Below, in pieces: positions 2,179 through 55,048 of a stretch of DNA of 64,000 bases. Position 1 is the stretch's first letter, and the number at the start of each line of letters is the position of its first letter. Below the pieces are notes generated by a model. That model searched no databases and was not told where the DNA came from. It saw nothing but the letters and a program-made list of their open reading frames with translations. Where the stretch lies: the NCBI GenBank assembly GCA_030427735.1, contig JAUIBP010000001.1, positions 124,001-188,000 on the forward strand, written 5' to 3'. Source of the stretch: Bacteroidia bacterium (GTDB lineage Bacteria > Bacteroidota > Bacteroidia > Flavobacteriales > Flavobacteriaceae). The position numbers and the translations under genes are program-made.

Positions 2179-3870
2179 TTATCTCACCAGTTTTTTATAC
2201 TTAATACGTTTTGGCATAATATCGCCACCTAAACGTTTCTTTTTATTTTCTTCATAATCGCTAAAACTACCCTCGAAGAAATAAACTTGACTATCGCCTT
2301 CAAAAGCAAGAATGTGAGTACATATTCTGTCTAAAAACCATCTGTCGTGACTAATAACCACGGCACAACCTGCAAAATTCTCTAAACCTTCTTCTAAAGC
2401 TCTAAGTGTATTTACATCTAAATCGTTGGTAGGCTCATCTAAAAGTAAAACGTTACCCTCTTCCTTTAAGGTCATGGCAAGATGCAATCGGTTTCTTTCT
2501 CCTCCAGACAATAACTTTACTTTTTTATTCTGTTCGCTTCCACTGAAATTAAAACGACTTAAATAAGCTCTAGAATTTACCTGCTTACCTCCCATTAGCA
2601 CTAATTCTTGCTCATCGCTAAAATTTTGCCATATTGTTTTTTCAGGATCTATATTAGCATGGCTCTGGTCTACGTAAGCAATTTTTGCAGTTTCACCAAC
2701 TTCAAAGCTTCCTTTATCTGGAGTAGCCTCGCCCATAATCATTTTAAAAATGGTTGTTTTACCAGCGCCATTAGGACCAATCACACCAACAATTCCTGCC
2801 TGCGGCAAATTAAAGTTTAAATCTTCGTAAAGTAATTTATCATCAAAACCTTTACTTATGCCTTTGGCTTCTATAACATTAGTACCTAATCGTGGTCCGT
2901 TAGGAATATAGATTTCCAGTTTTTCGTCAAGCTGCTTTTGGTCTTGACTCATCAATTTATCGTAATTTTTCAAACGGGCTTTCTGCTTCGTTTGTCTACC
3001 TTTAGCGCCTTGTCTTACCCACTCCAACTCGCGTTCCAATGTTTTTTGGCGCTTAGATGCTGTTTTATTTTCTTGAGCCAAACGCTTAGATTTCTGGTCT
3101 AACCACGACGAGTAATTACCTTTCCACGGAATACCTTCGCCTCGGTCTAACTCTAAAATCCATCCCGCAACATTATCTAAGAAATACCTATCGTGCGTTA
3201 CCGCGATAACCGTACCTTTGTACTGGGCTAAATGCTGCTCTAGCCAATGTACCGATTCGGCATCTAAGTGGTTGGTTGGCTCGTCTAAAAGCAACACATC
3301 TGGTTCTTGTAGTAATAAACGGCAAAGTGCTACACGCCTGCGTTCTCCACCAGAAAGCACACTTATTTTTTTATCGCCATCTGGAGTTCTAAGCGCATCC
3401 ATAGCAATTTCTAACTTGGTATCTAGCTCCCACGCATTGGTCGCATCAATCTGGTCTTGCAGTTCGGCCTGTCTGGCCATTAACTTATCCATTTTATCTG
3501 GGTTAGAGTACACTTCCTCCAAACCAAACATATCGTTAATTTTATTGTATTCTTCAAGAATAGCTACGGTTTCGGCCGCACCTTCCTTAACAATTTCCAT
3601 AACGGTTTTATCTTCATCTAATTGCGGCTCTTGTTCCAGATATCCAACAGAATAATCTTGAAGAAAAGTAACATCGCCTTGATAATTTTTATCTACACCT
3701 GCAATAATTTTCAATAATGTAGATTTACCAGAACCATTAAGACCTAAAATACCAATCTTGGCACCATAGAAAAAACTTAAATAAATATTTTTTAAAACAG
3801 GCGTATTTGCACCTGGAAATGTCTTGGTTAAACCAGACATCGAAAAAATAACTTTCTTATCGTCGCTCAT
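2179..3870 (-). CDS. ettA: Energy-dependent translational throttle protein EttA (ABC-F ATPase)
   Basis: A soluble 563-residue protein with two ABC domains and no membrane segments. The first Walker A is GLNGSGKST (about residues 43-51), with LSGGERRR and VLLLDEPTNHLD. The second domain has GPNGAGKTT, LSGGERNR and VLLLDEPTNDLD. The linker between domains is highly charged, as in the tRNA-interaction motif of the ABC-F family. EttA binds the ribosomal E site and gates entry into elongation according to the ATP/ADP ratio. Length and motifs match the family. The upstream neighbour ends 2 bp before the start, so the two genes are probably cotranscribed. Confidence 0.95.
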   Translation of the reverse strand: MSDDKKVIFSMSGLTKTFPGANTPVLKNIYLSFFYGAKIGILGLNGSGKSTLLKIIAGVDKNYQGDVTFLQDYSVGYLEQEPQLDEDKTVMEIVKEGAAETVAILEEYNKINDMFGLEEVYSNPDKMDKLMARQAELQDQIDATNAWELDTKLEIAMDALRTPDGDKKISVLSGGERRRVALCRLLLQEPDVLLLDEPTNHLDAESVHWLEQHLAQYKGTVIAVTHDRYFLDNVAGWILELDRGEGIPWKGNYSSWLDQKSKRLAQENKTASKRQKTLERELEWVRQGAKGRQTKQKARLKNYDKLMSQDQKQLDEKLEIYIPNGPRLGTNVIEAKGISKGFDDKLLYEDLNFNLPQAGIVGVIGPNGAGKTTIFKMIMGEATPDKGSFEVGETAKIAYVDQSHANIDPEKTIWQNFSDEQELVLMGGKQVNSRAYLSRFNFSGSEQNKKVKLLSGGERNRLHLAMTLKEEGNVLLLDEPTNDLDVNTLRALEEGLENFAGCAVVISHDRWFLDRICTHILAFEGDSQVYFFEGSFSDYEENKKKRLGGDIMPKRIKYKKLVR

Positions 3871-36238: not shown

Positions 36239-37294
36239 TTAATTGAGCGACTGCATATCAATCACAAAACGGTATTTTACATCACCTTTTTCCAATCGTT
36301 CAAAGGCTTCATTTACCTGTTGCATTGAAATGATTTCAGATTCTGCTACAATGTTATGTTTGTAACAGAAATCTAGCATTTCTTGGGTTTCTTTTATACC
36401 TCCAATGTTGGAACCTGCGAAACTTCTTCTACCCATTACCACGTTAAAGGCTCCTACTTCCAAAGGTTCTGGAGGCAAACCAACCAATACCAAAGTGCCT
36501 TCAATTTTTAGAATACCTAAATAAGTGTTTACATCGTGTTTAGCAGAAACGGTATCAATAATAAAATCCTGAGTTCCCATATAGGCTTTCATTTGCTCAG
36601 GGTCTTTACTTAAAACAGCGTTGTCTGCACCTAGTCTTTTAGCGTCTTCTACCTTTTCTGGTGAAGTTGTGAATACAGTTACTTCAGCGCCCATGGCTTT
36701 GGCTATTTTAATAGCTAAATGCCCTAAACCTCCTATTCCTAAAACACCTACTTTTTTACCCGGACCTGCATTCCAATAACGTAATGGTGAATACACTGTA
36801 ATACCAGCACACAATAAAGGCGCTGCTGAAGCTAAATCTTCAAAAGCTGGCATGTGCAATACATATTTGTCTTCGCAAACATAGGTTTTTGAGAATCCGC
36901 CATAGGTCATTTTTCCTTCTAAATATTTATCTGGAGAATTGAAAGAAAACTTTGGGAAGGAATCGCAATATTGCTCCTGCCCTTCGTCGCAATGCTGACA
37001 GGTTTGACAAGAATCGACAATACAACCAACGGCAGCCAATTCTCCTACTTTAAAATCGGAAACGTCACTACCTATTTTTGTAATACGACCTACAATTTCG
37101 TGACCAGGAACTATTGGATAAGCCGTCATACCAAAATCGTTATGAATTTGGTGTAAATCGGAATGGTAAATACCACAATACAATACTTCAAATTCTACAT
37201 CGTGAGGCTGTAGCTCACGACGTTCAATGTTCATTTCCTTTAGAGGCGTATCGGCTGCCTCTGTTCCGTATGCTTTTACTGTTGTTGTGTTCAT
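36239..37294 (-). CDS. Zinc-dependent NAD(P) alcohol dehydrogenase (YahK/CAD-like)
   Basis: 351 residues of the medium-chain dehydrogenase family. Catalytic zinc ligands are in YCGIYHSDLH and GHEIVG; the structural zinc site is CQTCQHCDEGQEQYC. The Rossmann motif is GVLGIGGLGHLAI. It resembles broad-specificity aldehyde reductases such as YahK. It starts 4 bp after the cupin/CMD stop, so it belongs to the operon controlled by operator A. Confidence 0.92.
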   Translation of the reverse strand: MNTTTVKAYGTEAADTPLKEMNIERRELQPHDVEFEVLYCGIYHSDLHQIHNDFGMTAYPIVPGHEIVGRITKIGSDVSDFKVGELAAVGCIVDSCQTCQHCDEGQEQYCDSFPKFSFNSPDKYLEGKMTYGGFSKTYVCEDKYVLHMPAFEDLASAAPLLCAGITVYSPLRYWNAGPGKKVGVLGIGGLGHLAIKIAKAMGAEVTVFTTSPEKVEDAKRLGADNAVLSKDPEQMKAYMGTQDFIIDTVSAKHDVNTYLGILKIEGTLVLVGLPPEPLEVGAFNVVMGRRSFAGSNIGGIKETQEMLDFCYKHNIVAESEIISMQQVNEAFERLEKGDVKYRFVIDMQSLN

Positions 37295-37298
37295 ATTA

Positions 37299-38549
37299 TT
37301 AATTTTTAAGTGTTATTTCGTTTATTGCATTTAAGGCATTCAATGTTCTTGGATAACCTATGTAAGGCAATAATTGTGTAGTAACATCAATAAGTTTTTG
37401 ACGATCGTTACCAACATTTAAGTTTCCTTGAATATGACCTCTTACTTGTGATTCTGTTCCACCCATACTTACTAAAATGGAATAGGTAATTAATTCGCGC
37501 ATCTGCATATCCAATCCTGTACGTGTGTAATAATCGCCAAAACAGTTTCCTGCTAAATATTCTTGGATATGTTTTAAATCATCAGGTGCATTTTTTCGTA
37601 TCTCCTCTATGCGATCTCCAAAAGTAGCCTTCATCAACTCCAACCCTTTTGCTTTTCGATTATTAGGCATTGTAGTTGCTTGTCCTTCTAAAGGTAAGGA
37701 AATATGATGCTGTTTGAAAATTTCATTGGTAGCATAAATGAAGTCAACTACCTTAGCAACACCAACATAAGCAACAGATTGATACAACACTTCCTTAATT
37801 TCAATAGGCGTTACACCAACATTTAAAGCTGCATTGACAAACATTTTGTATTCGGATAGCGCTTGAGAACCTACGTTAGAAGCCAAAATGCTTAAGGTTC
37901 TTGTTTTGTCGTCTAAATTGCTATGGCTATAGACCTCATCAAAAGCCCAATTATCAAAAATTTCTATGAGCTCTGGATCTGTTTCTCTTGCACTAGATTC
38001 ATAATTTGGCCAAAATTTTTCGTGATTAGCAATAGCTTTTGGCGTTAGATAATTTTCAACTTCTGCTACTTTTACCTCATAGGTATTGTACGCTTCATCG
38101 GTTACTTTGTTTCCCCAAATGGTTCTTTCTCCTTTATTTATCTCTGGAATCATAGCAATATGAGACATGGACTGGTAATGCGATGCGCCGTGCCAATGGT
38201 TGACTTTCTTGCCAATTTTCACAATATCGCCTTCTTGAATTTTCTGAATAGGTTTACCTTCTTCCTGATAATATCCTATTCCGCTTATAATCATCAGAAT
38301 TTGCCCATTATCATGCGAATGCCAATAGGTTCTTGCTTTAGGTTCAAAAGCAACTGTTCCCATTATGGTATTGTAGCCATCATCTTCTCCTAAATTCATA
38401 TTAACCCAAACTGTTCCTGTAAAATGCTCCGAAGGTGCTTGCTCTCCTTTTTCTTTGAATGAGGACATATTGTTTGATTTTTGTTCTTGTGCCTTTACTT
38501 GATATGTTAGTAAAAAAGCAAAGGCAATTATTAATTTGATTAGCTTCAT
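37299..38549 (-). CDS. Exported cupin plus double carboxymuconolactone-decarboxylase-domain protein
   Basis: About 416 residues from the internal ATG at 38549: a signal peptide (LIIAFAFLLTYQVKAQ), a cupin domain (YWHSHDNGQILMIISGIGYYQ and NHWHGAS, metal-binding His; about residues 40-140), then two CMD-like (AhpD-fold) domains. The AhpD CxxC redox motif is absent, so a peroxidase role is unlikely. The same frame continues upstream to 38705, adding 52 codons of a truncated SDR-type gene (see 38550-38705). The signal peptide behind the second ATG shows that 38549 was the original start. It is followed 4 bp later by the alcohol dehydrogenase gene. Confidence 0.85.
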   Translation of the reverse strand: MKLIKLIIAFAFLLTYQVKAQEQKSNNMSSFKEKGEQAPSEHFTGTVWVNMNLGEDDGYNTIMGTVAFEPKARTYWHSHDNGQILMIISGIGYYQEEGKPIQKIQEGDIVKIGKKVNHWHGASHYQSMSHIAMIPEINKGERTIWGNKVTDEAYNTYEVKVAEVENYLTPKAIANHEKFWPNYESSARETDPELIEIFDNWAFDEVYSHSNLDDKTRTLSILASNVGSQALSEYKMFVNAALNVGVTPIEIKEVLYQSVAYVGVAKVVDFIYATNEIFKQHHISLPLEGQATTMPNNRKAKGLELMKATFGDRIEEIRKNAPDDLKHIQEYLAGNCFGDYYTRTGLDMQMRELITYSILVSMGGTESQVRGHIQGNLNVGNDRQKLIDVTTQLLPYIGYPRTLNALNAINEITLKN

Positions 38550-38705
38550 AATTTCACCTTGTACCAGATGAACATTTTTAGAATTTGAAAGGCGATTTAT
38601 GTTTCGAGCAAAAAGAGTTAACACGGCCTCTTCCTGTTTTTTCAACTCTTCAGTCACAACCGAAGCCAAACTTCCGCTTGCACCTATTACCAATACCTTT
38701 TTCAT
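38550..38705 (-). pseudogene. 5' remnant of an NAD(P)-binding SDR-type gene, fused in frame to the cupin/CMD gene
   Basis: 52 codons, ATG at 38705, encode MKKVLVIGASGSLASVV and then LTLFARNINRLSN, the first beta-alpha-beta unit of an atypical SDR/NmrA-like NAD(P)-binding protein. The Rossmann motif GASGSLA is complete, but the rest of the some 200-residue protein is missing. The frame runs on without a stop into the ATG of the cupin/CMD gene. A deletion that kept the reading frame and left the regulated promoter in place explains it best. Confidence 0.75.
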
Positions 38706-38731: not shown

Positions 38732-38739
38732 CAAATTTC
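38732..38739 (-). promoter_or_regulatory. -7 box GAAATTTG, operon A
   Basis: One mismatch from TAnnTTTG, 26 bp upstream of the ATG at 38705 and exactly 23 bp from the edge of operator A. Confidence 0.6.
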
Positions 38740-38762
38740 CTGATACTTTAAGAATTGATTGT

Positions 38763-38797
38763 TATACAGATTACGGTTTTAGTTACCAATTATACAG
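38763..38797 (-). promoter_or_regulatory. AraC-type tandem operator, copy A
   Basis: 35 bp. Read on the plus strand, half 1 is TATACAGATTACGG and half 2 TTACCAATTATACAG. It shares 21 invariant positions with copies B, C and D. The edge nearest the gene is 23 bp from the -7 box 38732-38739. It controls the SDR-remnant/cupin-CMD/alcohol dehydrogenase operon. Confidence 0.75.
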
Positions 38798-42132: not shown

Positions 42133-42981
42133 TTAATAACCTGCCCAAGCACGGAATTGCTTAACCATATTTGGATCTCTATGATCAAAAAAACTACTGG
42201 TATTGGTATCTAATTTTGAAATGACTTGCATATCAGCATCTGACAATTCGAAATCGAACACCTTAAAGTTTTCTTCAATTCTTGATGGTGTTACAGATTT
42301 TGGGATGACTACGATATTGCGCTGAATCATCCAACGTAAAGTTACTTGAGCAACCGATTTATTGTATTTTTTACCAATTTCGACCAAGGTTTCATTTTGA
42401 AAGAAATCACCACGGCCTTCAGCAAATGGCCCCCAAGATTCGTGTTGCACACCAAACTCCTTCATCACCTCTTGGTCTTCATCTCTTTGATAAAATGGAT
42501 GTGTTTCAATTTGATTTAAAGCCGGTTTCACCTTGTTGAAACTGATTAAATCTACCAAACGGTCTGGAAAGAAGTTGCTCACTCCAATGGCTTTAATTTT
42601 CCCTTCGCTGTACAAATCTTCCAAGGTACGCCAAGAACCATAGACATCGTTAAAAGGTTGATGTAAAAGATATAAATCTACATAGTCTAATTGCAGCTTT
42701 TCCAAAGATTGAGCAAACGCTTTTTTGGCGGCTTCATAGCCATAATCCGAAATCCAAAGTTTGGTTGTGATAAACAACTCTTCTCTTGGAATGCCACTTT
42801 CTTTAATGGCGTCACCTACCGCTTTTTCGTTACCGTAGGCCTGTGCAGTATCGATGCTGCGGTAGCCTACCTTTAATGCGGTTAGTACACTTTGCTTACA
42901 TTCGTCGTAATCATTTACTTGATAAACGCCATATCCTAAAATGGGCATTTCAATCCCATTGTTTAATGTTACTGTTGTCAT
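42133..42981 (-). CDS. Aldo/keto reductase (2,5-diketogluconate reductase-like)
   Basis: 282 residues, cytosolic. Tetrad residues are in [12 protein letters not shown] (Asp, Tyr), FITTKLW (Lys) and LYLLHQP (His); the C-terminal [19 protein letters not shown] is the NADPH-binding segment. It belongs to the AKR5-like group that reduces small aldehydes and ketones such as methylglyoxal or diketogluconate. First gene of an operon with operator B 57 bp upstream of its start. Confidence 0.92.
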
Positions 42982-43014: not shown

Positions 43015-43037
43015 AATACTGATAGCCAACCTATTGT

Positions 43038-43072
43038 TATACCAATTACGGTGCTTATAACCATAATTACTG
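43038..43072 (-). promoter_or_regulatory. AraC-type tandem operator, copy B
   Basis: 35 bp. Read on the plus strand, half 1 is TATACCAATTACGG and half 2 TAACCATAATTACTG. The two half-sites are 21 bp apart. It is located as copy A is, 23 bp from its -7 box. Confidence 0.75.
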
Positions 43073-43169: not shown

Positions 43170-43769
43170 TCAACTACTAAAATCTTCCAACATCCGCCGA
43201 TAACTGTCCATAGTATCAACATCCTCCAAACTGCTTTTACACAAAACAGTTTTCACCTTATTTTCATGTTTTTTAATGATTTGCTTCGCTCCTATATCGC
43301 CTTGTAAACGCCTTAATGCCTCAAAGTAATAAGCATCGAAAATTACTGGGGCACTGCGTAAACCAGTTTCAGATTCCGACATGATAATTTGCTGTTTTCC
43401 AGGTTCAAAATTAGCTATCAATGCTTCAAAATGTGCTACGGCAATTAGCGGCTGATCGACCAAAGCGATAAGAACCCCATCGGGTTTACTGTCTAAATTA
43501 CAGATCTCCTTGACGCCACAAGCGATGGATGTTCCCATACCTTCTCGCCAATTGGCATTTTCAACAATCTGCACATCTAAATTGGTTATACTTTTTGAAA
43601 TGATTTCGGCTTTGGCGCCCAAAACAACAGTGAGCGACAGATGAGCCTTTTGTAAGACTTCAATTTGATGTTCGATAAGGGTTTTCCCTTGCCATGCTAA
43701 CAATTGTTTAGGCTGCCCCATCCGTTTGGATTCGCCTGCCGCGATAAGAAGTACTTGCAACTTAATCAT
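43170..43769 (-). CDS. mocA: MocA/MobA-like nucleotidyltransferase for molybdenum cofactor
   Basis: About 199 residues. The nucleotidyltransferase signature is LLIAAGESKRMGQPKQLL, and VALVDQPLI carries the metal-binding Asp. Family members join CMP or GMP to molybdopterin; in xanthine dehydrogenase-type operons this is normally the cytidylyltransferase that makes the MCD cofactor. The ATG at 43769 overlaps the xdhC stop by 8 bp, so translation is coupled. Last gene of the molybdenum hydroxylase operon. Confidence 0.88.
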   Translation of the reverse strand: MIKLQVLLIAAGESKRMGQPKQLLAWQGKTLIEHQIEVLQKAHLSLTVVLGAKAEIISKSITNLDVQIVENANWREGMGTSIACGVKEICNLDSKPDGVLIALVDQPLIAVAHFEALIANFEPGKQQIIMSESETGLRSAPVIFDAYYFEALRRLQGDIGAKQIIKKHENKVKTVLCKSSLEDVDTMDSYRRMLEDFSS

Positions 43770-44781
43770 GAATAGCACCTAATTTTTCGCGTAAAGGCTG
43801 CACCGCAACGTTTCGGGTAACGCTTAATATTTCAGCAATAATCGACAAGGCTATTTCTGCAGGAGTTTCAGCTCCTAAATGCAAGCCTGCCGGACCGTGA
43901 ATGGATTCTAAAAACTGAAAAGAAAAATCGGGCACATGGTTCATCACTTCTGAAAAAAGGCGTTCGCGACGTTTCGATGAACCCAGCACTCCCAAATAAG
44001 CAGGTTTCGTTTTATGAAGCGCCATAAGGTATTGCACATCCTTATTCAAACTGTGGGACATTAAAACAGCGGCTGAATGTTCGCCTATTCCAGATGTATC
44101 AATATCTTGAATTAGAGGCGTTGTTAAACTTTTAGCACCTTTGAAATAGTCTATTGATTTTTCCTCGTCGGGAGCAGCAATTATATGTACTTCCCAGCCA
44201 ATATTGCTAGCCAATTCGCATAACTGAACCGCATCGTGTTCGGCTCCAAAAATATACAACTGAAATATGGGTTGAAAGCTTTGCGTAAAAATCTCTAATA
44301 GATTTAATGCTGAAGAAAGTTCAAACTTCGGATTTAAAGTATAGCGTTTGCCTGCCATTTCTAAAACCGTTCCAAAAGCCTTACTTTCTGAAAATTCCGA
44401 TTTAAAAAAAGACCGTGTTTGAAAGTGTATTCGTTTCTCAAAACAAGTCTGAGCCACTTGCAACAACCCGTCTGTCACCACCATTGGTTCTATCAAAATA
44501 TACAAAACCCCTTCGCAGCCCAAACGGAAACGGCCATCGTAAGTTATTACTTTTGGTGTTTCTGTCTTAAACACCGATGCCGCTTGCAGCACAATTTCCT
44601 TTTCCACACAACCGCCACTAACGGCACCAAAAACCTCACCCGTTTCGGCAATAAGCATGCGTACGCCCGGTCGCCTATACGACGAACCTTCTAAGGCAAC
44701 CACCGTAGCCACTACCGATGTTATTCCCTGCACACGCCAAACATGCGCGACCTGTAGTAAGGTTTTAAATTCGTGAGTCAT
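43762..44781 (-). CDS. XdhC/CoxI-family Mo-cofactor maturation protein
   Basis: 339 residues. The N-terminal XdhC_CoxI domain has ALEGSSYRRPGVRMLI and GAVSGGCVEKEI; the C-terminal Rossmann part has YIFGAEHDAVQLCELASNIGW. XdhC binds the molybdenum cofactor and helps sulfurate and insert it into the partner hydroxylase. It follows the large subunit gene by 23 bp and overlaps the mocA-like gene, which fits that role. Confidence 0.92.
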   Translation of the reverse strand: MTHEFKTLLQVAHVWRVQGITSVVATVVALEGSSYRRPGVRMLIAETGEVFGAVSGGCVEKEIVLQAASVFKTETPKVITYDGRFRLGCEGVLYILIEPMVVTDGLLQVAQTCFEKRIHFQTRSFFKSEFSESKAFGTVLEMAGKRYTLNPKFELSSALNLLEIFTQSFQPIFQLYIFGAEHDAVQLCELASNIGWEVHIIAAPDEEKSIDYFKGAKSLTTPLIQDIDTSGIGEHSAAVLMSHSLNKDVQYLMALHKTKPAYLGVLGSSKRRERLFSEVMNHVPDFSFQFLESIHGPAGLHLGAETPAEIALSIIAEILSVTRNVAVQPLREKLGAIHD

Positions 44782-44804
44782 TTACATTAAAATTGGGACT
44801 AATA

Positions 44805-47069
44805 CTAGACAGATGTTTCTTTTTTAAGATACCTTTCTTCAATATCCACCATAAAAGGTTGATGGTAATAGCGTTTGCCAGTCGCTTTATACAACGCATT
44901 CGCCAAAGCGCCAATGGCAGGTGCAAAAGGCGGCTCTCCCAAACCTGTTGGGTGCACATCGCTTTCTACAAAATGGGTTTCTACATCCCATGGTGCGTCA
45001 TTATTTCGGATTAACTGGTAATCGTTGTAATTGCGTTGTTGCGGCACACCATCTTTAATGCTGAGCATGCTGTATAGCGCATGACCAATACCATCTACAC
45101 TCCCGCCTTCTACCATATTGGAAGCCGCTATCGGGTTCACCACAATGCCGCAATCAGTGGCACAATACACCTTTTCTATGATTGGCTTGTCGTTTTCCAT
45201 TCTTAAATCAACCACATTTGCTACATAACTATTGTGGCAATAATAAGCTGCCACACCGCGTTCTAAGCCTGGTTTTGCGGTTCCCCAGTTGGCCTTTTCT
45301 TTAATCAATTTTAAAACACCAGCATAGCGTTTGGCATCGTAATCGTTTCGCTCTCCAACCGGATTTTTAATAGCTTTGTCAAACAATTCCAATCTGAAAT
45401 CAATAGGATCTTTACCGGCCAATTCGGCAACCTCATCTAAAAAAGCTTGCTCTACCGCTCCCATAAAATTAGATCTTGGTGCTCGAAACGCGGCAGTTGT
45501 GATATTACTTTCAATCGTCCACGATTCGGCTAAATAATTTGAGACGGCTCCAGCTGGAAACCGATTGGCATACAACGGACTTTCGGGAATTCCGCCAGCT
45601 TTTACATGAAACGCGATCAAATTATTGTCCGCATCGAGTCCGGCGCGATAATAGGCGTGGTACATGGGACGATAGGCACCGAAAGTCATATCGTCCTCTC
45701 GGGTATAAAATAATTTGACCGGCTTTTTTATTTTTTGTGAAATAACTGCCGCTTCAACCAAATAATGTCCGAATAATTTGCGACCAAAACCTCCACCAAT
45801 ACGCGTCATTTGAATATCGATTTGTTCCAAAGACATGCCCAAACGTTGCGCTACAGATTGCTCCATATATTCTGGGGTTTGAATGGGGCCAATCAATTCG
45901 GCTTTATCGGCGGTTACATTAGCATAAAAATTTAGTGGTTCCAATGGACTGTGTGCCAAATAAGGAGCCGTGTACGTACGCTCTATGACTTTAGCTGCCT
46001 GAGAAAAGGCTTTATCGGGATCGCCATCTTTGCGCACCTGTTTGGGATTTGCTTGACTCGTTTGAATCATCGCTGCGTATTGTTTTTCCGTGTTTTCTAT
46101 CCCCGATGGTACAGTTTGATCGTTTGGCTTTCCACCACCAAAACCTTTCACTTTAATGGTGTACGGTTCAAAAGGCTCCCATTCGGCTTTAATAGTTTTC
46201 TTAGCTTTCATAATACGCCAAGTAGAATCACCCGTAATTACAATTAACTCCGGAAACGCATTGATATCAAAATAATTACGCTCAAAATCTTCCGGATAGG
46301 TTGTGATAGGAAAAACATCCGATATCCCTTCCATAGCCAGGGCTTCGGAAGCGTCGAACGATTTCAACTTCACCCCAAAAGCAGGCGGATGTACGATAGA
46401 CGCAAACACCATATTTTCACTATACACATCTAATCCAAATACAGCTTTTCCGGTAACTATATCGGGGCCATCTACATTATATTGCGAATGTCTAATGATT
46501 TTAAAATCCTTTATATTTTTGACTTCAACTTCTTTTGGAATTTGAAGTTTTGAAGCCGCTTCGGCCATCTCACCAAAGCCAGCTGACTTGCCACTCGCTT
46601 GATGCGAAATTACACTTTCATTCACCGTGATACTTGATGCTGAAACACCCCAAGCGGTTGCTGCAGCTTCAACAAGCATGTGTCTAGCGGTGGCTCCTGC
46701 CATTCTTAAGGCATCCCAACTCTGATTGATGGATTGACTACCACCGGCAATTTGCCTTGTAAAAATTCCTGTGTTGAGTGGCGCCTGAACCACTTTAACG
46801 TGTTTCCAGTTTACATCCAATTCTTCTGCTACAATCATTGGCATGGACGTTTTTACGTTCTGACCAATTTCGGGATTGGGTGACGCAATCGTAACCATAC
46901 CATTACTATCAATTTTTATAAAACCATTTAAATCGTAAGCTGCTTCTAACTTTGGGTTCTCTTTTGCTAGAGCCGAAAACCAACTGAATTGCAGCATCAA
47001 TCCCGCGCCGCCTGCTGCAGATAACTTAAGAAATGAACGTCTATTGAGGTGGGTTTTTACTTTCGTCAT
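44805..47069 (-). CDS. Molybdopterin-binding large subunit of a Tat-exported aldehyde/isoquinoline oxidoreductase-type enzyme
   Basis: 754 residues with a twin-arginine signal (NRRSFLKLSAAGGAG) and the xanthine oxidase-family Mo-binding fold in the shape of isoquinoline 1-oxidoreductase beta subunit (IorB). Motifs include MTRIGGGFGRKLFGHYL, TTAAFRAPRSNFMGAVEQAF and the C-terminal LGEPPFAPAIGALANAL with the catalytic Glu region. IorB-type enzymes hydroxylate N-heterocycles or oxidise aldehydes; the substrate here is unknown. The Tat signal indicates a periplasmic site. Neighbours supply the 2Fe-2S subunit, a diheme cytochrome and the cofactor maturation proteins; no FAD subunit is encoded. Confidence 0.93.
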   Translation of the reverse strand: MTKVKTHLNRRSFLKLSAAGGAGLMLQFSWFSALAKENPKLEAAYDLNGFIKIDSNGMVTIASPNPEIGQNVKTSMPMIVAEELDVNWKHVKVVQAPLNTGIFTRQIAGGSQSINQSWDALRMAGATARHMLVEAAATAWGVSASSITVNESVISHQASGKSAGFGEMAEAASKLQIPKEVEVKNIKDFKIIRHSQYNVDGPDIVTGKAVFGLDVYSENMVFASIVHPPAFGVKLKSFDASEALAMEGISDVFPITTYPEDFERNYFDINAFPELIVITGDSTWRIMKAKKTIKAEWEPFEPYTIKVKGFGGGKPNDQTVPSGIENTEKQYAAMIQTSQANPKQVRKDGDPDKAFSQAAKVIERTYTAPYLAHSPLEPLNFYANVTADKAELIGPIQTPEYMEQSVAQRLGMSLEQIDIQMTRIGGGFGRKLFGHYLVEAAVISQKIKKPVKLFYTREDDMTFGAYRPMYHAYYRAGLDADNNLIAFHVKAGGIPESPLYANRFPAGAVSNYLAESWTIESNITTAAFRAPRSNFMGAVEQAFLDEVAELAGKDPIDFRLELFDKAIKNPVGERNDYDAKRYAGVLKLIKEKANWGTAKPGLERGVAAYYCHNSYVANVVDLRMENDKPIIEKVYCATDCGIVVNPIAASNMVEGGSVDGIGHALYSMLSIKDGVPQQRNYNDYQLIRNNDAPWDVETHFVESDVHPTGLGEPPFAPAIGALANALYKATGKRYYHQPFMVDIEERYLKKETSV

Positions 47070-47071
47070 GA

Positions 47072-47530
47072 TTACAGGTCTTTTGCTGCCGATTTAATGG
47101 CGCGATTAATTCTGGTATAAGTAGCGCAACGGCAAATATTACCGTTCATAGCGCGTCTGATTTCGTCGTCGGTTGGATTTGGATTTTGATCCAACAACGA
47201 AGAAGCTGTCATGATTTGTCCTGCCTGGCAGTAGCCACATTGCGGAACATCGTGCTCCAGCCATGCCTTTTGCACTGGGTGATCGCCATTTTCGGACAGG
47301 CCTTCTATGGTTACAATTTTTTTATCGCCCACAGCACTTATGGGATAAGCGCAAGACCTTACCGCATCGCCGTCTAAATGGATGGTACAAACGCCACAAT
47401 GCGCAATGCCACAACCATATTTGGTACCCAGTAAGTGCAGATTATCGCGTAACACCCACAGAATTGGGGTATCCGAATCGACATCCACTTGTTTCGATTC
47501 GCCATTCACATTGATTGTATATCGTGCCAT
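47072..47530 (-). CDS. 2Fe-2S small subunit of the molybdenum hydroxylase (IorA-like)
   Basis: About 152 residues. An N-terminal plant-type ferredoxin domain binds one cluster (KYGCGIAHCGVC), and a C-terminal helical domain binds the second (QCGYCQAGQIM and NICRCATYTRI). It passes electrons from the Mo site outward. The ATG at 47530 is preferred; TTG 47539 is the longer alternative. It has no signal peptide of its own, so it would be carried out with the Tat-tagged large subunit. It sits 2 bp upstream of that gene. Confidence 0.95.
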   Translation of the reverse strand: MARYTINVNGESKQVDVDSDTPILWVLRDNLHLLGTKYGCGIAHCGVCTIHLDGDAVRSCAYPISAVGDKKIVTIEGLSENGDHPVQKAWLEHDVPQCGYCQAGQIMTASSLLDQNPNPTDDEIRRAMNGNICRCATYTRINRAIKSAAKDL

Positions 47531-47571
47531 CGTTTTCAATTTTTTTTTGATTAATCAGACTTGATTTTGGT

Positions 47572-48210
47572 TTATTTTGATGGTGCAAAAGCGCCATTAT
47601 CAATCCACGCATACCAAGCTTCTTTAAATTCTTCGTAAGTTAAAGACGGTAATGTTCGGTCTCCGCCCATCTGCCAGCCGCTTTTCACCAAAGTATCTTC
47701 GGCATGCAGTCTAAGGTCTGCCATATTTTTATGCCCGTTTAAGTCGGGATTTACCAATTGTAAAGCCAAAGCTCGTGGCGAACGCCCTTGAAACACCATT
47801 TTCATATCGGCAGGTGGTAAATGCCACATCGGATTTCCTGGTGGTGTTGCATCGCCAGGAACGCCTTTAGAACCGTGACAATTGGTACATTTCATAGTTA
47901 AAAGACCTTTGCCATCTGGCCCACGTTGCGGCAACATATTGTGAACATGACTGTCGTCGCCCTGCAATGGAATATCGCCTTGCGGATGGCAATTCATGCA
48001 TCTAGGATGCATCAAAACCGAATATACTTTTTCGAAAGCTGAAAGAGACGCTATACTATCTTTCATTTTTGCTTCGGGGATAGAAACATAGTCTGAACTT
48101 GTTGGCTTTTTCGACTTACAGGCCGTTGTAAAAATGCCCATTATAAGACACAATACAAGGAAGCCGAAACTGTATTTCAATCCATTGGTTGAATAGCTAT
48201 TCTTTAACAT
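47572..48210 (-). CDS. Diheme cytochrome c-type lipoprotein
   Basis: 212 residues with a lipobox (GIFTTAC). Two CxxCH haem motifs are present: CMNCHPQGD and CTNCHGSKG, the second followed by a GNPMWHLPP stretch. The pattern resembles the 'isoquinoline 1-oxidoreductase subunit' cytochromes found with IorAB in Bacteroidota. It would accept electrons from the 2Fe-2S subunit in the periplasm. First gene of the operon: cytochrome, IorA-like, IorB-like, XdhC, MocA-like. Confidence 0.9.
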   Translation of the reverse strand: MLKNSYSTNGLKYSFGFLVLCLIMGIFTTACKSKKPTSSDYVSIPEAKMKDSIASLSAFEKVYSVLMHPRCMNCHPQGDIPLQGDDSHVHNMLPQRGPDGKGLLTMKCTNCHGSKGVPGDATPPGNPMWHLPPADMKMVFQGRSPRALALQLVNPDLNGHKNMADLRLHAEDTLVKSGWQMGGDRTLPSLTYEEFKEAWYAWIDNGAFAPSK

Positions 48211-48463: not shown

Positions 48464-49477
<1,014 letters not shown>

Positions 49478-49494
49478 TTAATGCCTTACTTTTT

Positions 49495-49529
49495 TATACA
49501 GATTACGGTTGTTCTAACCAATATTACGG
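49495..49529 (-). promoter_or_regulatory. AraC-type tandem operator, copy C
   Basis: 35 bp. Read on the plus strand, half 1 is TATACAGATTACGG and half 2 TAACCAATATTACGG. This copy has two exact ATTACGG half-sites 21 bp apart. It is 23 bp from the aldo/keto reductase -7 box. Confidence 0.8.
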
Positions 49530-49578
49530 TTTTGGTCACTTGTAACTGTTTCAATCTTTCAAAATTCGCTTGTTTCTG

Positions 49579-49613
49579 TATACCAATTACAGATATGCTT
49601 ACCATTATTACGG
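49579..49613. promoter_or_regulatory. AraC-type tandem operator, copy D
   Basis: 35 bp. Half 1 is TATACCAATTACAG and half 2 TTACCATTATTACGG. It begins 84 bp from copy C (eight helical turns) in the same orientation, and lies 39 bp from the -7 box of the araC gene. It could be an auxiliary or looping site, or serve araC autoregulation. Confidence 0.75.
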
Positions 49614-49652
49614 ATTTGCAAACCACGAAAGCTACGATGCTAGATTATTGTC

Positions 49653-49660
49653 TAAATTTG
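49653..49660 (+). promoter_or_regulatory. -7 box TAAATTTG of araC (49679)
   Basis: Exact TAnnTTTG, 18 bp before the ATG at 49679. It shows that the longer reading frame upstream is not coding. Confidence 0.65.
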
Positions 49661-49678
49661 TATACAAATCAGGACGTT

Positions 49679-50569
49679 ATGGACATTATTCATTTTAACA
49701 CGGTTAACGATTACAACAGTTACAACAACAACGAAACCTTGAATCCGCTGGTTAGTATTGTGGATTTATCTAAAGCCGCACCGCGTAAAAAATACCGCAT
49801 GCATTTTAATCTGTATTGTGTGATTTTAAAACAAACCAAGTGTGGCGATATTAGATACGGTAATAATTATTACGATTACCAAGAAGGCACTTTGGTCTTT
49901 TTTGCACCCGGACAAGTGGTAGAAATTGATAGCGATGTGTATTATCAACCACATGGCACGGTTTTGGTTTTTCACCCCGATTTAATTAAAAACACCTCTT
50001 TGGGAAAACTGATAAACGACTATGGTTTTTTCTCTTACAACACCAATGAAGCCTTACATCTTTCGGAAAAAGAGCGCCACATTATAGCAGATTGCTTTTC
50101 GAAACTTGAATACGAACTCGAACAGTCTATAGACAAACACAGCAAGACTTTAATTGCTTCCAACATTGAATTATTACTGAATTACTGCACCCGCTTTTAC
50201 GACCGCCAATTTATTACGCGTGAAAACAGCAACAGAGGTACTTTAGAAAAATTCGAACAGCTTTTAAAACAGTATTTCTCATCCGACCAACCGCAACAAA
50301 CAGGTCTGCCATCAGTAGCTTTTTGTGCTGACAAACTGCACTTATCGGCTAATTATTTTGGCGATTTAATTAAGAAAGAAACTGGAATTTCGGCTCAAGA
50401 ATACATACAAACCAAATTGATAGACGTGGCCAAAACCCGCGTTTTCGATATAGACAAATCCATTAGCCAAGTGGCCTACGAACTAGGTTTTAAATATCCG
50501 CAGCATTTTAATAGATTGTTTAAGAAAAAGACTGGTATGACGCCAAATGAGTATCGGCAGATGAATTGA
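49679..50569 (+). CDS. AraC-family regulator, probable regulator of operators A-D
   Basis: About 296 residues: an N-terminal cupin-like sensor (GTLVFFAPGQVVEI) and a C-terminal double HTH (LPSVAFCADKLHLSANYFG; then ISQVAYELGFKYPQHFNRLF with KKKTGMTPNEYR). The ATG at 49679 is preferred: the extra 66 codons upstream contain operators C and D and the -7 box, so they are not coding. It is divergent from an aldo/keto reductase gene and paralogous to the AraC at 50871-51791. Its own last 63 bp recur as a relic at 56097-56159. Its role as regulator of A-D is inferred from position. Confidence 0.88.
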   Translation: MDIIHFNTVNDYNSYNNNETLNPLVSIVDLSKAAPRKKYRMHFNLYCVILKQTKCGDIRYGNNYYDYQEGTLVFFAPGQVVEIDSDVYYQPHGTVLVFHPDLIKNTSLGKLINDYGFFSYNTNEALHLSEKERHIIADCFSKLEYELEQSIDKHSKTLIASNIELLLNYCTRFYDRQFITRENSNRGTLEKFEQLLKQYFSSDQPQQTGLPSVAFCADKLHLSANYFGDLIKKETGISAQEYIQTKLIDVAKTRVFDIDKSISQVAYELGFKYPQHFNRLFKKKTGMTPNEYRQMN

Positions 50570-52883: not shown

Positions 52884-53939
52884 TTATTTCAAATTCTCAT
52901 TAAAAAAACTTTCTAATTTATCAAATGGAATTTTATCCATTTGGTCGTATAAATCGGTATGCACTGCGTTGGGAACTATCAACAATTCTTTAGGTTCGGC
53001 AGCAGCTTCAAAAGCCGTTTCGCTAAAATATCTAGAATGCGCTTTTTCTCCTGCAATAATCAAAACTGGTCGTGGGGAAATTTCTTTTATATATTGTAAA
53101 ATCGGGGCATTCATATTTGTAACAGGATTTGTTAAAGACCACGATCCATTTGAATTTAATGAACGTGAGTGAAACCCTCTTGGCGTTGTATAATAAGCAG
53201 CGTATTCTTTTACAAATTGCGGTACGTTTTCAGGAAGATTTTTCAGTCCTGTAGGACCGTATGCAGGTTTACCATTTTCAGCATCTTTCCATCGTTGTTC
53301 ACCAATTTGTATATATTCTTTGTTGCGCTCTTCTGCTGTTTTTGAATCGTAGTAACCATTTGCCGTGCTTCTAGAAATATCGTACATCGTAGAAGTTGCT
53401 ACTGCTTTTATACGTTTGTCTGGAGCAGCAGCATTTAGTGCATATCCGCCAAAGCCGCAAATCCCTAAAATTCCAATTTTATTTCTATCAATATTTTCTT
53501 GTAACCCTAAAAAATCGACCGCAGCACTAAAATCTTCTGTGTTAATGTCTGGTGAAGAAATGTTTCGGGGTTCGCCACTGCTTTCACCTGTATAAGAAGG
53601 GTCAAATGCTAAAGTTGCAAAACCTCTTGCCGCCATTTGATTGGCATACAATCCAGAAGACTGTTCTTTCACAGCGCCATAAGGACCGCTAATTGCAATT
53701 GCAGGTAAATTATTTCTGCCATTTTTAGGAAGGTATAAATCGCCTGAAAGCGTAATGCCAAATCTATTTTTGAAGGTTACTTTTTGTCTTGTTACGTTGT
53801 CGTTTAAATTAAACGTATAGTGTTCTTCTGTTTTTGCCATGGTATTTGTTTCTGCTATTGTTGGATTTTCTTTTGTTTTATCTTGACACGCCCCCAAAAT
53901 CATAATGGCGCCTATCAGCATTATTATTCTAATTTTCAT
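52884..53939 (-). CDS. DLH-like alpha/beta hydrolase lipoprotein
   Basis: About 351 residues from the ATG at 53939; lipobox AIMILGAC. The alpha/beta-hydrolase fold is shown by ISGPYGAVKEQSS, FATLAFDPSYTGESSGEPR and the nucleophile elbow ILGICGFGG, where Cys stands at the nucleophile position as in dienelactone hydrolases; the His is probably in NAVHTDLYD. Substrate unknown. Its start overlaps the cupin stop by 11 bp, so it is the third gene of a coupled operon. Confidence 0.88.
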   Translation of the reverse strand: MKIRIIMLIGAIMILGACQDKTKENPTIAETNTMAKTEEHYTFNLNDNVTRQKVTFKNRFGITLSGDLYLPKNGRNNLPAIAISGPYGAVKEQSSGLYANQMAARGFATLAFDPSYTGESSGEPRNISSPDINTEDFSAAVDFLGLQENIDRNKIGILGICGFGGYALNAAAPDKRIKAVATSTMYDISRSTANGYYDSKTAEERNKEYIQIGEQRWKDAENGKPAYGPTGLKNLPENVPQFVKEYAAYYTTPRGFHSRSLNSNGSWSLTNPVTNMNAPILQYIKEISPRPVLIIAGEKAHSRYFSETAFEAAAEPKELLIVPNAVHTDLYDQMDKIPFDKLESFFNENLK

Positions 53940-54456
53940 TCTTATCTTTTTCATTAAAATCTTTATTATACACATTCTCTCTTACGGGTTCTTGCCAATC
54001 AACAATTCCTTTTTCTGTATTCGGAACGATGTACAGCTGCTGCAAACCTACTTTAGGACTAGCACCGTGCCAGTGTCGCACATTGGGTGGACATTGTATA
54101 ACATCGCCTTTTTTTATGGTTTCAATAGCTTGTCCCTCAATTTGATGATAGCCAACGCCATCGGTAATAATTAGTATTTGACCTGAAGGATGCGAATGCC
54201 AATTGCTTCTTGCTCCAGGTTCAAAATAGACATTGCCAACAGCTGTAGTAAAAATGGAATCAACAGTTACCAATCCAATATTGTATGCGTTTCCTGTAAA
54301 ATATGCTGCCGAACCTTTTTCTCCTTGAGGAAAAATAGCATCTAATTCGTTATGGTTAATTTCTATATTTTCTGATTTTTTTTCGGAGTCCGAATTGCAA
54401 GCTATTAGTAATAGACTTCCCATAAAAAACACCATTGTTTTAATATAGCTGTACAT
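53929..54456 (-). CDS. Cupin-domain lipoprotein
   Basis: About 175 residues with a lipobox (GSLLLIAC). A single cupin domain carries the metal-binding pattern NWHSHPSGQILIITDGVGYHQ (motif 1, given as span residues about 80-100) and VRHWHGASP (motif 2). It closely resembles the cupin part of the cupin/CMD protein at 37299-38549, including the WHGAS segment. ATG 54456 is preferred over TTG 54489. It is the middle gene of the acetyltransferase-cupin-hydrolase operon. Confidence 0.87.
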   Translation of the reverse strand: MYSYIKTMVFFMGSLLLIACNSDSEKKSENIEINHNELDAIFPQGEKGSAAYFTGNAYNIGLVTVDSIFTTAVGNVYFEPGARSNWHSHPSGQILIITDGVGYHQIEGQAIETIKKGDVIQCPPNVRHWHGASPKVGLQQLYIVPNTEKGIVDWQEPVRENVYNKDFNEKDKNEN

Positions 54457-54481
54457 ATATTTTAGTTTTGGTTTAATGGTT

Positions 54482-55048
54482 CTATTCAAGTGTTTTAATA
54501 ATTTTTGCAGGAATGCCTCCTACAATGGTATTATCAGGAACATCTTTTGTTACGACAGAGCCTGCCGCTACAACAGCATTTTCTCCTATGGTAACACCTT
54601 GTAAAATAGTTGCGTTTGCTCCAATCCAAGCATTTTTTTTAATATGAATGGGTTTAGGAATAAGCGCATGTCTTTCCTTTGGATTTAAAGGATGGCCTTC
54701 TGAAAGCAGACTTACATTAGGAGCGATTAATACATTGTCGTCAATAGTAACGCCTCCTAAATCTAATATGGTACAATTGAAATTAATGAACACATTTCTA
54801 CCTATTTTAGTATGCTTGCCGTAATTGATGTAAATTGGCGTAAAAACAGTTACACTTTCGTCAATTTTCGAAGCCGTAATTCCACTTAATAAATCTCTAA
54901 TTTCTGTTGGATTGGAAGATTGGTTTATTTGCAGTAACAAGGCTTTGGTTGCAAATGACGCTTCCCGCATTTTGTAGGCTTCTGGATCGTTTGGCGATAT
55001 GATTTCACCTTGCTTAAGACGATTAAAAATCTCTGGTTTATTCATCAT
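54482..55048 (-). CDS. Maa/LacA-type sugar O-acetyltransferase
   Basis: 188 residues. The N-terminal Mac domain ([18 protein letters not shown]) is followed by a left-handed beta-helix of hexapeptide repeats ([14 protein letters not shown] through [19 protein letters not shown]). The catalytic His is in [11 protein letters not shown]. It acetylates a sugar hydroxyl using acetyl-CoA. First gene of a three-gene operon and divergent from an AraC gene; its -7 box TAATTTTG is at 55066-55073. Confidence 0.92.

Follow-up and report, generated by a model that had tools for sequence, protein, structure and literature searches.

Several described systems come close to the locus studied here. Atypical SDR proteins of the NAD_binding_10 family (PF13460) have an N-terminal GASGxLA motif and a first beta-alpha-beta unit, and both are found at the start of a reading frame in the window, i.e., the whole stretch of 64,000 nucleotides that was analysed. 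Proteins that join a cupin, close to NCBIfam NF049940, to carboxymuconolactone decarboxylase (CMD) domains (PF02627) share with the remainder of the same frame both domains, the WHSH and HWHG motifs and two CMD stretches. Gene fusions that arise by deletion between operon neighbours display an in-frame junction, loss of the intervening DNA and a retained promoter, as does the locus in the window. However the SDR remnant represents only about 50 of the 184 PF13460 profile positions, the remaining fold being gone. Unlike the cupin and CMD proteins described, the fusion carries an SDR-derived extension, and its cupin scores lie just under the NF049940 and Cupin_2 cut-offs. In contrast to the usual deletion fusions within one operon, an N-terminal enzyme fragment is left in front of a signal peptide. 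A literature search for the AKR/ADH/cupin-CMD cluster or for promoter capture found nothing relevant.

We regard it as probable, though well short of certain, that the frame is a deletion fusion inside an AraC-regulated catabolic cluster, with regulation kept rather than newly captured and with the first ATG (ATG1) as the most likely start of translation.

The fused reading frame and its parts

37299..38705, minus strand: whole fused reading frame, 468 codons with no internal stop
38550..38705, minus strand: SDR remnant (codons 1-52), beta1-alphaA-beta2-beta3 of a PF13460 atypical SDR, assigned by Pfam, a local SDR profile, the Neptunitalea SDR and a structure model
38490..38549, minus strand: signal-peptide-like segment, codons 53-72, ending at VKA/QE, assigned by hydropathy and orthologues
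38085..38453, minus strand: cupin domain, (R)-mandelonitrile-lyase-like, codons 85-207, assigned by NF049940 and Cupin_2
37314..38048, minus strand: double CMD region, codons 220-464, two PF02627 stretches
36239..37294, minus strand: ADH, the next gene of the run after a 4 nt gap, 80% identical to Neptunitalea L034:7038-8189

The first-pass annotation had reported a single fused frame, and the frame is indeed open throughout its 468 aa on the minus strand. Along it, about 52 codons of SDR type are followed by the signal-peptide-like segment, the cupin and then the CMD domains. It lies inside a large contig of a draft assembly of 20 contigs that is 99.94% complete.

Residues 8-54 match NAD_binding_10 profile positions 1-50 of 184 with 21.6 bits, under the cut-off of 27.2; a whole NAD(P)H-binding domain is lacking in the remnant, whereas intact relatives cover profile positions 1 to 181-184. 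Against a local profile made from nine longer relatives, residues 1-58 score 47 bits, and over its first 50 residues the fusion shares 64% identity with the Neptunitalea SDR. The nucleotide-binding motif GASGSLA is present at residues 8-14 of the fusion, and 9/9 positions that are invariant among the relatives are kept. The earlier description of this segment as a complete first Rossmann unit is a fair one: the model places a strand at residues 2-7, a helix at 11-22 and further strands at 27-33 and 45-49. In the structure model of the fusion the fragment has a pLDDT of about 60, the residues that follow it as far as 217 have lower values, and no packing is predicted with confidence.

Because the SDR-like alignment can be drawn to residue 58, the junction can be placed only to within a few codons and not to the base. 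The ATG of codon 53 could have come from either parent gene, the SDR or the cupin/CMD gene.

The hydrophobic stretch that follows Met53 has a Kyte-Doolittle mean of 2.03 (residues 52-68) and leads into VKA/QE, a good signal-peptidase I motif. Orthologues at loci L034, L035, L038 and L039 likewise begin with signal-peptide-like segments. By this motif the signal peptide would be cleaved after residue 72, with Q73 as the predicted mature start. The cupin scores just under the cut-offs of NF049940 (135.6 bits against 140) and Cupin_2 (26.3 bits against 27.2), and the intact Neptunitalea orthologue is also slightly below both. The CMD region matches PF02627 with 95.5 bits, above the cut-off of 23, and its relatives show 50-70% identity. 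A second, cupin-only protein with a lipoprotein-like start is encoded at 53929-54489; it shares 38% identity with the cupin of the fusion and has no copy of operator A, the AraC-type element described below.

Gene order in relatives and the proposed deletion

The closest relative found is Neptunitalea sp. Y10 (L034), whose cupin/CMD protein is 63% identical to its counterpart in the fusion. There, one tight run holds AKR1, an intact SDR (190 aa), an exported ADH, cupin/CMD, AKR2 and ADH, with the AraC gene divergent. The SDR gene (L034:3284-3856) is located two genes upstream of cupin/CMD. The gene families and the operator beside the AraC gene are the same as in the window, and the ADH and cupin/CMD identities are those given above. 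However Neptunitalea has a separate, intact SDR, the exported ADH and a single operator that heads the run, whereas in the window further oxidoreductase genes separate AKR1 from the remaining members and the operator occurs in several copies. A molybdenum hydroxylase-like set, named from the translations (large and small subunits, XdhC-like, MocA-like and a CxxCH protein), lies at 43170-48210 between AKR1 and AKR2 of the window and is not in the Neptunitalea run.

SDR orthologues are found within CMD clusters at eight loci from Bacteroidota, Verrucomicrobiota, Acidobacteria and Myxococcota (the copy in L042 is interrupted by masked bases), and given the distance between these loci the association is therefore old. 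The SDR adjoins the 5′ side of the cupin in L041 and of the CMD in L045. In L034, L035 and L038 the gene immediately preceding cupin/CMD is an exported-type ADH; in L037 such an ADH lies a short distance ahead of cupin/CMD.

The genome's own assembly was searched for the parts that are lacking at the fused gene. The search with SDR residues 54-190 found nothing beyond an intact paralogue on contig 20, and that with the exported ADH found only an ADH paralogue of 43% identity. The contig 20 paralogue (2638-3243, L082) is 42% identical to the Neptunitalea SDR and could stand in for the truncated SDR. Since the genome lacks both the exported ADH and the remainder of the SDR, a single deletion of about 1.56 kb would account for the two losses; from a Neptunitalea-like ancestor the calculated size is about 1564 bp. 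An ancestor of the L041 kind, with the SDR directly before the cupin, would instead require a deletion of roughly 0.5 kb.

We propose that the ancestor had the SDR, the exported ADH and cupin/CMD in one run of the Neptunitalea kind. A single deletion, from about SDR codon 51 to about the start of cupin/CMD, would have eliminated the exported ADH altogether along with the larger part of the SDR, and would have joined the remaining SDR codons in frame to cupin/CMD. The cupin/CMD gene, probably already co-regulated with the SDR, would thereby have become promoter-proximal. A gene cluster can in this way drop two members in one step with the downstream gene still expressed.

Against this proposal, the ancestral order comes from another genus, the nearest relative being only 63% identical. 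In addition, the SDR remnant in the window is directly behind its own operator copy, whereas the Neptunitalea SDR is internal, behind AKR1. This difference in SDR position relative to the operator indicates more than one step of rearrangement in the region.

The fusion was not detected again in a search of several hundred genomes drawn from the family, the order and the phylum, nor in GTDB contigs or plasmids. Five congeners lack both the SDR and cupin/CMD, and only AraC1 paralogues of about 40% identity were found in congeners. The full-length cupin/CMD protein is encoded in 2 of several hundred Flavobacteriaceae genomes searched, the second of which (G916) is probably Neptunitalea itself. 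In these searches the distribution of the cluster appears patchy.

Translation starts and the SDR-derived codons

Two further ATG codons were compared with ATG1 as possible starts, with 41 genes of the window as the reference for scoring start contexts.

38547..38549, minus strand: ATG of codon 53 (ATG53), the apparent original cupin/CMD start, weak context
38466..38468, minus strand: ATG of codon 80 (ATG80), in frame and shortly after the signal peptide, strong context, near the start of the L036 and L040 orthologues, which lack a signal peptide

ATG1 has a context at the 93rd percentile and an opening energy of 6.9 kcal/mol. ATG53 has a context at the 20th percentile, and its opening energy of 9.2 kcal/mol is above the 90th percentile of the genes (8.0). 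ATG80 reaches the 93rd percentile with 4.4 kcal/mol. Initiation in Flavobacterium is tuned by upstream adenines and mRNA structure (PMC6847099), and ribosomes of Bacteroidia fail to recognise Shine-Dalgarno sequences (PMC9976891). Thus, with context and structure better at ATG1 than at ATG53 and with no Shine-Dalgarno recognition, initiation at ATG1 is expected. The sequence AAGGTGA before ATG53 was considered as a ribosome-binding site and was dropped on the Flavobacterium literature (PMC9976891, PMC6847099).

To look for decay of the SDR-derived codons, the fragment was compared with intact orthologues. On 50 codons dS is saturated in most pairs, so that only dN is usable. The dN to the outgroup locus L037 is 0.406 for the fragment versus 0.437 for the intact Neptunitalea SDR; to the outgroup locus L087 the values are 0.613 versus 0.593. 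By this measure the fragment has diverged no faster than intact orthologues, and no decay is seen. This lack of decay fits a recent deletion or a translated, constrained segment alike, and with dS saturated, selection on the 52 codons and a recent deletion are indistinguishable.

The first-pass annotation held that a Rossmann fragment followed by a buried signal peptide makes no sense as a protein. This is not supported: ATG1 is the better start, ATG53 is a poor one and the 52 codons show no decay. Translation most likely begins at ATG1, and our best guess for export is an extended signal that is cleaved. Such a product would have a Sec signal with a 52-aa N-terminal extension, cleavage would occur after residue 72, and the mature exported enzyme would be unchanged. 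Part of the product may come from ATG53 (exported) or ATG80 (cytosolic). The locus is a clean natural test of whether Bacteroidota export a protein with 52 residues before its signal peptide, or restart translation within a translated frame without Shine-Dalgarno help.

Operator A, probably retained regulation and the alternatives

38757..38797, minus strand: operator A copy before the fused gene, AraC-type paired half-sites
43032..43072, minus strand: operator A copy before AKR2 (42133-42981), found by matrix
49489..49529, minus strand: operator A copy before AKR1 (48464-49462), found by matrix
49573..49613, minus strand: second operator A copy between AKR1 and the AraC gene, found by matrix
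38732..38739, minus strand: -7-like promoter element GAAATTTG, one mismatch to the consensus TAHHTTTG, leader of about 25 nt
49679..50569, plus strand: AraC1, AraC-family regulator; the orthologue L034:1217-2110 is 58% identical and aligns from 49679

The -7 consensus is taken from PMC6847099. Operator A, named in the earlier annotation, is a genuine repeated element: a 41-bp AraC-type sequence in which two half-sites repeat at a spacing of about 21 bp, present in four copies in the window. In a leave-one-out test, where a matrix from three copies is used to find the fourth, the copies score 29-39 versus 13.8 or less elsewhere in the window; the copy before the fused gene scores 29.0 versus 11.1 for the best non-site. 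The same element is found beside AraC1 orthologues in four loci, at L034:2182 (29.7), L037:360 (28.0), L039:3814 and 7461 (31.8 and 40.6) and L043:3299 and 3390 (41.4 and 36.0). Eight shuffles of L034 score 11.0 or less. No site above 10 was found in L035, which has no AraC1 orthologue nearby, or in L038 and L040. This co-occurrence points to AraC1 as the likely reader of operator A. It should be noted that the listed AraC1 reading frame (49481-50569) begins within the operator region; the gene itself probably starts at the ATG at 49679, which lies downstream of the two operator copies.

In Neptunitalea the single operator heads a run that holds both the SDR and cupin/CMD, and in Bacteroides luti (L039) an operator heads AKR1, which is followed by cupin/CMD. 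Because these orthologues stand behind the same type of operator, the cupin/CMD gene was probably already in the AraC1 regulon before the deletion. The earlier proposal was that a deletion had placed the exported gene behind operator A, as a regulatory capture of the SDR promoter. The joining of the genes by deletion and the position of the joined gene behind operator A are supported; the capture is not. Capture supposes a gene outside operator control before the deletion, and this gene, as argued from its relatives, probably was not. What the locus shows is plain to see but unexceptional, a fusion by deletion within a co-regulated cluster.

We consider it unlikely that cupin/CMD owes its place under operator A solely to the deletion and uses ATG53 as its start, with the SDR codons as a useless leader. 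The fused gene does stand behind an operator copy, and the junction is at, or a few codons from, ATG53. However, apart from the operators already present before the orthologues, local context and structure both make ATG53 a poor start, little help is to be expected from its AAGGTGA, and a functionless leader should decay; the 52 codons show no decay, which would be expected of such a leader only after a recent deletion.

It is also doubtful that selection maintains the 52 codons as a translated segment, with the Rossmann part as a very long n-region of the Sec signal or as a leader that boosts translation. Improbable, too, is a selected new protein in which the Rossmann fragment serves a purpose, for example as a tail that faces the cytoplasm on a signal anchor left uncleaved, or again as a translation-boosting leader. 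The undecayed fragment, with its GASGSLA motif and all nine invariant positions, would agree with such a protein, but a recent deletion explains the absence of decay equally well, the fusion is seen in one genome only and the structure model has no confident packing. A partial nucleotide-binding fold should moreover bind its cofactor poorly. An assembly or sequencing error that joined two genes apart in the real genome is very improbable: the genome is a draft in 20 contigs and no second genome has the junction, but the junction lies inside a large contig in a clean frame, and no missing part of the SDR or ADH turns up elsewhere in the nearly complete assembly.

Beside the deletion fusion with retained regulation, the locus yields a well-supported candidate AraC operator for a widespread, uncharacterised AKR/ADH/cupin-CMD cluster. 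Conserved across Bacteroidota beside AraC1 orthologues, operator A marks out a putative regulon made up of AKR, ADH and cupin/CMD genes.
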